The notes under the pieces are model-generated. The model worked only from the letters and a program-made list of their open reading frames with translations, was not told the DNA's origin and ran no database searches. A DNA stretch of 31,474 bases from a virus, in the IMG/VR virus record IMGVR_UViG_3300042112_000219, positions 1 through 31,474 of that record; one strand, given 5' to 3'. Position numbers and translations under genes: made by a program. This document shows, one piece after another, positions 5,965 to 28,544 of the stretch; the stretch's first letter is position 1; each line of letters begins with the position of its first letter.

Positions 5965-5990
5965 TTCGTTGTTCAGTTCAGGTTGCACTC

Positions 5991-6039
5991 TGACGGCCTC
6001 GTCAGCACCCGCATCACGGGTGGACGCCCCGGAGGGCGT
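5991..6039. other. Cluster of three short hairpins in an intergenic gap
   Basis: Three perfect inverted repeats follow one another within 49 bases between two small genes. They are TGACG/CGTCA with a 4-base loop (5991-6004), CACCCG/CGGGTG with a 5-base loop (6006-6022) and ACGCCC/GGGCGT with a 4-base loop (6024-6039). Gaps between them are one base. In the transcribed minus direction they lie just before the gene that starts at 5964. None is followed by a U-run, so they do not look like intrinsic terminators. They could form an RNA structure that stabilises or punctuates the message. Confidence 0.5.
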
Positions 6040-6045
6040 TTCGGC

Positions 6046-6216
6046 CTAGCGTTTTGGTGCGCGCACTGTGCCGTCGCGGAGAACTTCAACTTCGCCCCAG
6101 GCGGCTTGAATGATTACACTCACAACCGCTTTGTCATTGAATGACTGCGCTGCGAGTGCGCGGATGATTTCGAGAGAATTGATCTGGGAGATGCAGGTGA
6201 TGTGGTTTGTTGTCAT
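6046..6216 (-). CDS. Small hypothetical protein (56 aa)
   Basis: Unrecognised 56-residue protein with a helical middle (INSLEIIRALAAQ) and a beta-like end (AVVSVIIQAAWGEVEVLRDGTV). An in-frame TTG at 6264, overlapping the stop of the upstream basic protein, would add a lysine-rich 16-residue extension; the ATG at 6216 is the simpler choice. No Shine-Dalgarno sequence is obvious for either. Confidence 0.42.
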   Translation of the reverse strand: MTTNHITCISQINSLEIIRALAAQSFNDKAVVSVIIQAAWGEVEVLRDGTVRAPKR

Positions 6217-26608: not shown

Positions 26609-26744
26609 AAAGATACAACTGCGCGGCAATTTCTGCCGGTAGACAGGCCGTTTTTTGCCGATTGCACAAAAAAAAAGCAAGCGTCCTTGAGCTCACCCCG
26701 ACGAAAAGCCGGTTTAGGAGACTCCTTGCCGGGGGGGAGTAGGC

Positions 26745-26787
26745 AAGTTGGGCTAAAGACATACCCCCTTCATGGCCCAACTTTTTT
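26745..26787 (+). terminator. Plus-direction terminator-like hairpin
   Basis: AAGTTGGGC (26745-26753) pairs with GCCCAACTT (26775-26783), nine perfect pairs, followed by a run of T on the plus strand. On the minus strand the stem is followed by GCCTACTCC, so only plus-direction termination fits. No plus-strand gene is evident, so a short antisense or regulatory RNA from 26560-26787 is possible. Immediately upstream lies another short hairpin, TTGCC/GGCAA (26726-26746). Confidence 0.45.
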
Positions 26788-26792
26788 AGGGC

Positions 26793-26838
26793 AAAAAAAG
26801 CCCCCGGTTGGTGCGCATCGTTGAGAGGCGTCCGGGGG
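26793..26838 (-). terminator. Intrinsic terminator after HTH gene
   Basis: On the minus strand CCCCCGG (26838-26832) pairs with CCGGGGG (26807-26801) around a 24-base loop, followed by C and seven T (26799-26793). It lies about 55 bases downstream of the stop of the HTH gene, so it ends the early transcription unit before the late block. In the nearby stretch from 26839 to 26893 I see no gene. Confidence 0.7.
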
Positions 26839-26893
26839 TCGATTGCCGATATACTCGCACAATCTTGCCATCAGTCTAGCATCATCTTTCAGG

Positions 26894-27229
26894 TCACCCA
26901 AGCATTGCCTTAGCCGCTTGCTTGGCCGCGTACTCCACGGCCTGGTGCGACACTCCCAGTGCAGCCGCTGCCTGGCTCATGTCATTGTAGCCCGTCAGGT
27001 GCCCAAGCCCAACCCCGAACGCCATGCCCACAATCCGCAACCGCATGTTGCTGCGTGCCGTTGCCTCAAGCAGCCAGCTGAGGATGCGGACGATTGCCAC
27101 GCCACCAGAGGTCTGCGCGTGCGCTCGGCAACCTCGGACATACCAGCGCCAGACGTCCTCAGACTGGTCGTGCGTTAGACCAAGGTCAAGAAGGTCGTCG
27201 ATGCCTGCTGAGTAGTCTAGCTCGGTCAT
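26894..27229 (-). CDS. Small HTH protein, possible regulator (111 aa)
   Basis: Helical 111-residue protein of unknown family. The C-terminus has an HTH-like segment, MSQAAAALGVSHQAVEYAAKQ, and the middle is helical with hydrophobic faces (AIVRILSWLLEATARSNMRLRIVGMAFG). It follows the hairpin repeats and precedes a terminator and the late block, as expected for a late regulator or a packaging-related protein. The ATG at 27229 lies just after one hairpin repeat; an in-frame GTG at 27259 within that repeat is the alternative. The gap 27260-27602 above it has no gene I can support. Confidence 0.55.
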   Translation of the reverse strand: MTELDYSAGIDDLLDLGLTHDQSEDVWRWYVRGCRAHAQTSGGVAIVRILSWLLEATARSNMRLRIVGMAFGVGLGHLTGYNDMSQAAAALGVSHQAVEYAAKQAAKAMLG

Positions 27230-27236
27230 GCAGTAT

Positions 27237-27534
27237 TGCCGGTCTCTCCCGGCTGTCACGCCTGGCGGTGGGTAGCGGCGTTCCCAGTCCTGCTATAGTT
27301 TTATGTGCGGCAAGACTCGCGACACTCTGGCCGAGTTCCTGCCGGTCTCTCCCGGCTGTCAGGTCTGCATTTGGCTCTTACCTTCGCCCCGTTTCTGCGG
27401 CGTCCCGCCTCGGCACTGGTGCCGGTTTGCTGTCGCAAAATTTGCCGGTCTCTCCCGGCTGTCGCACCACTTTTGGCCTAACCGCAATCAGGCCACGCAG
27501 GTGTCGCGGATGTGTCTGTCTCTCCAGACTGTCA
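27237..27534 (-). repeat. Four 22-bp hairpin repeats with invariant GAGAGA loop
   Basis: In the gene-free gap, four copies lie at 27237-27258, 27340-27361, 27443-27464 and 27513-27534 (start-to-start spacing 103, 103 and 70). On the minus strand three read GCCGG-GAGAGA-CCGGC, with TGACA or CGACA before the stem. The fourth reads GTCTG-GAGAGA-CAGAC: two base pairs change on both sides, so the stem is kept while the loop stays identical. The lowest copy is seven bases before the HTH gene's ATG and holds a GGGAG inside the hairpin. The spacers do not resemble each other. This is either an RNA element or a palindromic operator set. Confidence 0.75.
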
Positions 27535-27602
27535 CGCACGACCGGTGTGGCACACGCCAGTGGTCCCGCGGCGTTCGCGGAAAGAACCCATAGGGATTGC
27601 CG

Positions 27603-27791
27603 TTAATGAACCACACTTGGCTGAATCGCGTCAAGGTCTTCCTGCGTCCAGCCCTCTCTGCGCATCTGAATTTCCAGTGCCTCTATGCGCCTGAGTGCAG
27701 TCCTAAGCTGCCGGGATGTTTCGTCGAGCATGGCCTTGAGTGTTTCAATTGCCAGTGCGTGCTCAATACGTTCGGATGGTGTGATGCTCAT
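27603..27791 (-). CDS. Small coiled-coil protein (62 aa)
   Basis: Unrecognised helical protein: MSITPSERIEHALAIETLKA, then SRQLRTALRRIEALEIQMRR with a coiled-coil rhythm, ending TQEDLDAIQPSVVH. ATG overlaps the previous stop as ATGA. It is the last of a chain of small early genes and precedes the hairpin repeats. Confidence 0.55.
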   Translation of the reverse strand: MSITPSERIEHALAIETLKAMLDETSRQLRTALRRIEALEIQMRREGWTQEDLDAIQPSVVH

Positions 27792-27985
27792 TCCAGTGCC
27801 TCCCGTGCTATTTGACGCATGGATTGTGCCCAGTTGCCATGGTAATCGCGAATGCGCTTAAGTGCAGTTTCCAGCTTTTCAATTCTGGCTTCTGCCTCAT
27901 CCAAATCGGAATTGAGGATACAAGGATCACCGCAATCGCAGCGTGCATCGTTAATCATTCTAACGTGGTTTGGATCTGTGATCAT
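27788..27985 (-). CDS. Small protein with CDCGDPC cluster and coil (65 aa)
   Basis: Unrecognised. The start contains CDCGDPC at about residues 16-22 (possible metal site), followed by a heptad-like helix (DLDEAEARIEKLETALKRIR). Ends QSMRQIAREALE. Coupled on both sides by ATGA overlaps. The ATG at 27985 was preferred because it follows the GAGGGGGA leader shared with neighbouring genes. Confidence 0.55.
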   Translation of the reverse strand: MITDPNHVRMINDARCDCGDPCILNSDLDEAEARIEKLETALKRIRDYHGNWAQSMRQIAREALE

Positions 27986-28194
27986 TCCCCCTCCTTCCAT
28001 TTGCCCATTGCTTTTGGATCACCAACAATTTGCCCAGTTTCAAACGGTCCAATGTTTGCGCCAAAGAAAATCGGGAAACCCGGCCCTTCTTTTTTGACCA
28101 ACAAAAGAGAATCGATGGCGTAAATTAACGTTCCATTTTCCCAGCATTCTCTGCGTCCCGCTGGACTATCGTAAACACAGACTCTCACCTTCAT
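27982..28194 (-). CDS. Small early protein ending GKWKEGE (70 aa)
   Basis: Unrecognised. A beta-like start (KVRVCVYDSPAGRRECWENGT), a strand-rich middle (LIYAIDSLLLVKKEGPGFPIFFG), and an end, MGKWKEGE, that copies the C-terminus of the two ABA-sandwich-like proteins upstream although the rest is unrelated. The shared end covers the ribosome-binding sequence of the next gene, so it may be kept for that reason. ATG overlaps as ATGA. Confidence 0.55.
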   Translation of the reverse strand: MKVRVCVYDSPAGRRECWENGTLIYAIDSLLLVKKEGPGFPIFFGANIGPFETGQIVGDPKAMGKWKEGE

Positions 28195-28544
28195 TCTCCC
28201 TCCTCCCATTTACCTAGTGTCCTCAGAAACGCCTCTGCGCGTTGGCGGGCAGTTGCGCACACCCACGGCCAGTCTGCATCTAACCCGCGCAGATGATCCG
28301 TTTCGACCAAACCGGCAAGCGTAGTGAGATATGAGTTGCGGTCTTTAGTCAGCACCTTCTCCGCCTCATGCATTGCGTTGAGGTCGGTGGAGTAATTGGG
28401 CAGGTACTTGTATGCATTGCCTCCCTGTCCCGGCTTCATGGGAGGGTAGCCCCACAAGGTGTGATTGTGCCAGGGGCCACTGTCGTGAATGTCAGTCCAC
28501 CCACACTCACGCGCAATCGCAGCGTTAATTTCTTGGTCAGTCAT
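28191..28544 (-). CDS. Phage ABA-sandwich-like protein, copy B (117 aa)
   Basis: Begins MTDQEINAAIARECGW and carries YSTDLNAMHEAEKVL and CATARQRAEAFLRTLGKWEEGE, the typical elements of the phage ABA-sandwich family (unknown function, common in early regions). It is paralogous to the gene directly upstream. The ATG at 28544 overlaps the previous stop; the purine-rich GGAGGAGGGGGA before it is encoded by that gene's last codons. No catalytic motif is visible. Confidence 0.68.
   Translation of the reverse strand: MTDQEINAAIARECGWTDIHDSGPWHNHTLWGYPPMKPGQGGNAYKYLPNYSTDLNAMHEAEKVLTKDRNSYLTTLAGLVETDHLRGLDADWPWVCATARQRAEAFLRTLGKWEEGE

Follow-up and report, generated by a model that had tools for sequence, protein, structure and literature searches.

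The repeats and their surroundings

The DNA analysed here (the window) is a single IMG/VR virus record of 31,474 bp. Upstream of the genes for the small and large terminase subunits it contains a noncoding stretch of about 370 bp, which runs from a small gene (27603-27791) to a gene for an HTH-like protein of 111 aa (26894-27229, minus strand, start codon at 27229). All of the genes examined near this stretch are on the minus strand. Four hairpin repeats had been noticed here in a sequence-only reading, and re-reading of the sequence confirmed them all, on the minus strand between 27237 and 27533. Copies 1-3 are GCCGG-GAGAGA-CCGGC and copy 4 is GTCTG-GAGAGA-CAGAC, with two stem positions altered on both sides; the start-to-start spacings are 103, 103 and 70 nt. 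The copy described as seven bases from the ATG of the HTH gene lies 8 nt before the A at 27229, or 7 nt if counted from the conserved A that follows the hairpin. Read as RNA, copies 1-3 are GACA-GCCGG-GAGAGA-CCGGC-A and copy 4 is GACA-GUCUG-GAGAGA-CAGAC-A. An extended form of this pattern matched the record four times and a backwards control not at all, which, together with covariance-model scores of 36.3 to 63.1 bits, argues that the repeats did not arise by chance. The model (R1; 44 sequences, 10 pairs, E-values rough) found no strong site in the window besides the four copies, and a DNA-level search of INPHARED with positions 26700-28300 returned no match.

Alignment of related loci showed that the hairpin first noted, P2, makes up no more than the 3' half of an element about 45-70 nt long, with the consensus 5'-GA-[P1: A....U]-GACA-[P2: 4-5 bp, loop GARAGA]-A-3'. 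The 5' helix, P1, has A-U as its outermost pair, GA or GG in front of it and a loop that varies from 5 to more than 30 nt; GACA, P2 and the conserved A follow in that order. In the flanks, information reaches background level within about 4 nt on the 5' side of P1 and 2-3 nt on the 3' side of P2. This structure is well supported. A kink-turn was considered and rejected: GA...GA can flank P1, but the column profiles on which this test was based held no conserved upstream column for a C-stem.

Copy 1 (27236-27286, minus strand), directly 5' of the HTH gene, scored 63.1 bits with R1, whose training set includes a near-identical copy from contig L005. Its P1 pairs 27277-27281 with 27258-27262 and is followed by GACA (27254-27257), the P2 hairpin (27238-27253) and the conserved A (27237); relatives keep this copy 8-11 nt from the ATG. 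Copy 2 (27339-27388, minus strand, P2 hairpin 27341-27356, 36.3 bits) has a short P1, AGGU/ACCU. In copy 3 (27442-27509, minus strand, P2 hairpin 27444-27459, 37.4 bits), P1 (CACC/GGUG) encloses an inner hairpin, and the fold was bettered by only 1 of 200 shuffles. Copy 4 (27512-27579, minus strand, 42.2 bits) combines a P1 of ACGC/GCGU with the compensated P2, GUCUG/CAGAC (27514-27529). Single-sequence folding gave P2 in all four copies, whereas P1 was clear in copies 1 and 3 and less so in copies 2 and 4.

The HTH-like protein is conserved in close relatives, with 90-100% identity over its full length from the ATG at 27229, and had no confident PHROGs family. Relatives whose HTH genes are 90-93% identical have one intact copy of the element or spacings of 107 and 90 nt, so the 103-nt period of the window appears incidental. 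Two proteins had been put forward for binding to the repeats. The HTH gene is present in 16 of several hundred loci, which argues against its product as a general ligand. The ORF for the second, a basic protein of 53 aa, is not conserved; because it is confined to a near-identical contig (L005/L169) and occurs in no other relative, it is probably not a gene. A Shine-Dalgarno-like role, suggested for the stem and loop of copy 1, was also abandoned because GGAG is about 16-19 nt away from the ATG, a greater distance than is normal for Shine-Dalgarno sequences, and loop variants such as CAGAGA break GGAG.

Elsewhere in the window, at 5988-6046 on the minus strand, there is a type II hammerhead ribozyme (RF02276; 38.6 bits, cut-off 37). 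A contig that also carries the element, L030, has two type II hammerhead ribozymes.

Covariation of the stems and the RNA reading

A check for covariation in related phages, proposed in the sequence-only reading, showed that the stem pairs covary across hundreds of phages. A search of IMG/VR with the pattern GACAGNCNGGAGAGACNGNCA, in which the loop is GAGAGA and two stem pairs are left free, returned at least 120 stretches. Among the matches listed, both free pairs were complementary in 109 of 112 distinct ones (209 Watson-Crick pairs, 14 G-U pairs and 3 mismatches). The same pattern with GAAAGA as the loop also gave at least 120 matches; the distinct ones listed paired in 118 of 118 cases (225 Watson-Crick, 11 G-U, 0 mismatches), while a control with a scrambled loop gave a single match. 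The counts in these scans are taken among the matches listed, which are mostly metagenomic contigs, and relatedness between sequences was handled by removing duplicates only. When P1 was fixed and P2 left free, all five pairs formed in 37 of 47 cases, with stems as unlike as AUCAG/CUGAU and CCUCG/CGAGG. When the stems were fixed and the loop left free, GAGAGA was recovered in 38 of 43 cases and CAGAGA in 3 of 43.

P1 is no part of GACAGNCNGGAGAGACNGNCA, and counts of P1 are thus free of that selection. A 5-bp P1 with a basal A-U pair was present in 43 of the 112 listed matches compared to 10.5 in shuffles (maximum 19), and a further A preceded P1 in 33 of the 112 compared to 2.8 in shuffles. 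Alignments that had been selected for the structure or fitted to it contained 53 and 140 compensatory cells (0 of 500 shuffles), counts that are biased towards the structure and supportive only.

The sequence-only reading had leaned towards RNA but left symmetric DNA operators open. With both loops taken together, G-U pairs outnumbered true mismatches about eight times among the matches listed (25 vs 3), which argues for pairing in RNA. Among the matches listed, the element was intergenic in 165 of 174 copies, as judged with our own heuristic codon-model gene caller; of the 138 listed copies with both neighbours, 134 had the orientation of the next gene and 128 were co-directional with both neighbours. 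The covariation, the tolerance of G-U pairs, the near-invariant loop and the sense orientation strongly support the view that the repeats are a cis-acting structured RNA.

If the HTH protein or terminase bound the repeats as double-stranded DNA, as an operator or a packaging site, this would suit their tandem, inverted arrangement next to an HTH gene and upstream of the terminase genes. However, G-U pairs exceeded true mismatches with each loop (14 vs 3 and 11 vs 0, among the matches listed), the strand bias is strong (134 of 138 sense, among the matches listed), and the sequence of the stem is free while that of the asymmetric loop is fixed. Moreover, spacing and copy number vary even among close relatives, and nearly all phages with the element lack the HTH gene. 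A symmetric DNA operator would be expected to show Watson-Crick symmetry and no preference for one strand. A DNA site is therefore disfavoured, and we regard it as very improbable.

Distribution and placement in phage genomes

Phage contigs and prophage regions with the element number at least several hundred; among them are phages of E. coli, Klebsiella, Cronobacter, Pseudomonas and cyanobacteria as well as crAss-like phages. Named phages that carry it are mEp390, Cronobacter CS01, Klebsiella P7641, Morganella IME1369_02, Acinetobacter Alexa, Pseudomonas Medea1, Xanthomonas DIBBI, Rhodobacter RcCWillis, Phaeobacter MD18, Synechococcus MinM2 and the crAss-like cr55_1; in the regions read it is unannotated. 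Genome contigs of very diverse bacteria also contain it. Since the neighbours there match phage PHROGs (head-tail adaptor, portal and terminase among them), these occurrences are probably prophages for the most part. A scan of bacterial genomes, in which chance matches were more numerous, gave 89 of 112 matches paired at both positions. Tandem copies are common, up to 4-5.

Frequent downstream neighbours are the T7-like major capsid gene (9), the Mu gp36-type head-tail adaptor (6) and recombination genes. The element precedes the major capsid gene in T7-like marine-type phages (L013, L035, L036, L043, L058, L069, L071, L094, L098, L115 and L120); three of the upstream neighbours tallied are photosystem II D1 genes, and a hairpin further downstream that starts with GGGAGA resembles a phage promoter start. 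Upstream of the element, about 60 nt are near-identical in mEp390 (L335, 3941-4000) and DIBBI (L343, 1820-1879), which are unrelated phages of different hosts.

The element is in no Rfam 15 family. No family was found at the element at gathering level, nor did scanning the window region and 15 loci with a lenient E-value yield one; Mu-gpT-DE, though conceivable at Mu-like sites, had no match there. A search of open-access papers found no earlier description.

Among the matches listed there were about 20 cases in which a tRNA or tRNA-like structure (ARAGORN, introns allowed) starts -1 to 6 nt after the element, and tRNA starts were far denser in this interval than at larger distances. Several of these tRNA-like structures have disrupted or enlarged anticodon arms. 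Those directly downstream of the element in L046, L008, L149, L153, L109 and L126 are 87-128 nt long, with normal acceptor, D and T arms and anticodon arms that are enlarged or broken, and nearly the same structure stands ahead of two different genes in L008, L149 and L153.

Within the HTH family, most relatives have a gap of about 8-11 nt from the end of the element to the ATG; L170, L173 and L189 carry a version with a 4-bp P2 in the same place. L008 and L153 differ in having a tRNA-like structure interposed, which follows the element by about 5 nt and is separated from the ATG by 8-11 nt. L149 is arranged in the same way in a second gene family, other members of which have the element directly at that distance. 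These comparisons suggest that, with respect to the start codon, the 3' edges of the element and of the tRNA-like structure are equivalent. Excision of tRNA-like structures normally involves a cut at either end, so a cut at the edge of the element would be the simplest common explanation. In other gene families, the distance from element to start codon varies.

Placement just before start codons, which is frequent, might also reflect a site at which a host RNA-binding protein or the ribosome determines how stable the downstream RNA is, or how it is translated, without cutting it. A hexaloop that stays invariant while the stem varies is a typical trait of hairpins bound by proteins. However, tRNA-adjacent copies have no start codon to regulate, no single protein is common to the loci, and loop variants of the CAGAGA type disrupt the Shine-Dalgarno-like motif. 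We consider such a site unlikely.

Two matches concern tmRNA. The phage tmRNA at L045:1644-1990, with the tag ANDNSTPLAAKAA, contains GACAGGCTGGAGAGACGGCCA at 1880-1900 within the gene, possibly by chance. In CS01, a weak tmRNA_permuted match (L336:3034-3175, 27.4 bits vs a cut-off of 47) follows the element immediately, within an unannotated gap that precedes the terminase genes. A tmRNA module was provisionally set aside, as the pattern in one phage tmRNA and the weak CS01 match are not general.

Possible functions and known systems

We tentatively favour, at somewhat less than an even chance, a cis-acting RNA-processing element that is possibly a new self-cleaving ribozyme. In the nascent phage transcript, P1 and P2 would form side by side, linked by GACA; P2 would bear the conserved purine loop GARAGA, and the helices would be bordered by conserved A residues. 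A cut at the element's 3' edge or close to it would then create a separate 5' end for the tRNA or mRNA downstream, and the cutter would be either the element itself, as a new small self-cleaving ribozyme, or a common host ribonuclease. Cleavage, the position of the cut and the RNA as catalyst are all predicted. We prefer processing because of the adjacency to tRNAs, the spacing in the HTH family and in L149, and the hammerhead ribozyme of the window phage; the very wide host range and the lack of a shared protein fit a mechanism that is independent of protein or uses a universal host factor. Against processing we counted the variable distance to the start codon in other families, the tandem copies, which would be superfluous for a single cut, and the location of theta ribozymes, which are linked to tRNAs in phages and sit 3' of them.

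A narrower and more doubtful proposal is that the element may be a new class of ribozyme of about 50 nt with two hairpins that cuts polycistronic phage RNA in many bacterial phyla, with predicted cuts just 5' of tRNAs, tRNA-like structures and start codons. If this is true, the class would be new, but the absence of a match at the element to known Rfam ribozyme classes (hammerhead, HDV-like, twister, pistol, hatchet and others) counts against a ribozyme. The sequence GACA-GNC recalls the cleavage motif of the hairpin ribozyme. A hairpin-ribozyme substrate was rejected because these bases pair and covary in P2.

Among known phage RNAs, boxB in the nut sites of lambda resembles the element in its 5-bp stem, its conserved purine-rich loop and, at some loci, its location in phage operon leaders. 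BoxB has a GNRA-like pentaloop and a boxA sequence nearby. The element instead has a hexaloop, GARAGA, and a second covarying helix, and its flanks, which carry background information beyond about 4 nt, contain no conserved boxA-like sequence. Type II hammerhead ribozymes (RF02276) are likewise small phage RNAs, one of them in the same record, but the element is without any hammerhead core. The HDV-like theta ribozymes of gut phages adjoin tRNA genes, act at tRNA 3' ends and have a proposed role in tRNA maturation (PMC10879173). The likeness is that of a small phage RNA directly beside tRNA genes; the structure and sequence differ, the element is on the 5' side of the tRNA, and its cleavage is putative.

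The main rival of the processing reading is an antiterminator like put of phage HK022, in which the nascent two-hairpin RNA would bind host RNA polymerase and allow read-through of terminators in long operons and untranslated tRNA regions; we judge it rather unlikely. Put has a two-hairpin architecture and acts without dedicated phage proteins (PMC9378689); the very wide host range of the element is a further point in favour. Both are cis-acting RNAs of about 50-70 nt with two adjacent stem-loops; put lies in early-operon leaders, as the element does in some phages, and achieves antitermination via the zinc-binding domain of the RNA polymerase beta' subunit. In mEp390, P7641 and Medea1 the element occupies the leader of the early operon, after the repressor gene. 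In CS01, DIBBI, IME1369_02 and the window it stands where the terminase region begins, and in MD18 it lies within tRNA arrays, so that early-operon, late-operon and tRNA-array placements are all represented.

Several observations weigh against this rival. R1 found no site in HK022 between 24000 and 34000 except one match of 13.9 bits (E 0.13) inside IS903; terminator-like sites are not enriched near the element, so that local terminators were rejected; and in Alexa the copies face away from any annotated gene downstream. The element precedes the major capsid gene in T7-like phages, and the two records of near-genome size in that group encode a single-subunit RNA polymerase, although this enzyme is possibly not the one that transcribes that region. 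Compared to put, the element is far more widely spread, is often inside operons or before tRNAs, occurs also in phages with their own single-subunit polymerase, and keeps a near-fixed spacing of 2-6 nt to tRNA 5' ends that would be unexpected of an antiterminator. If the element nevertheless acts as put does, put would change from a lambdoid curiosity into a general phage strategy.
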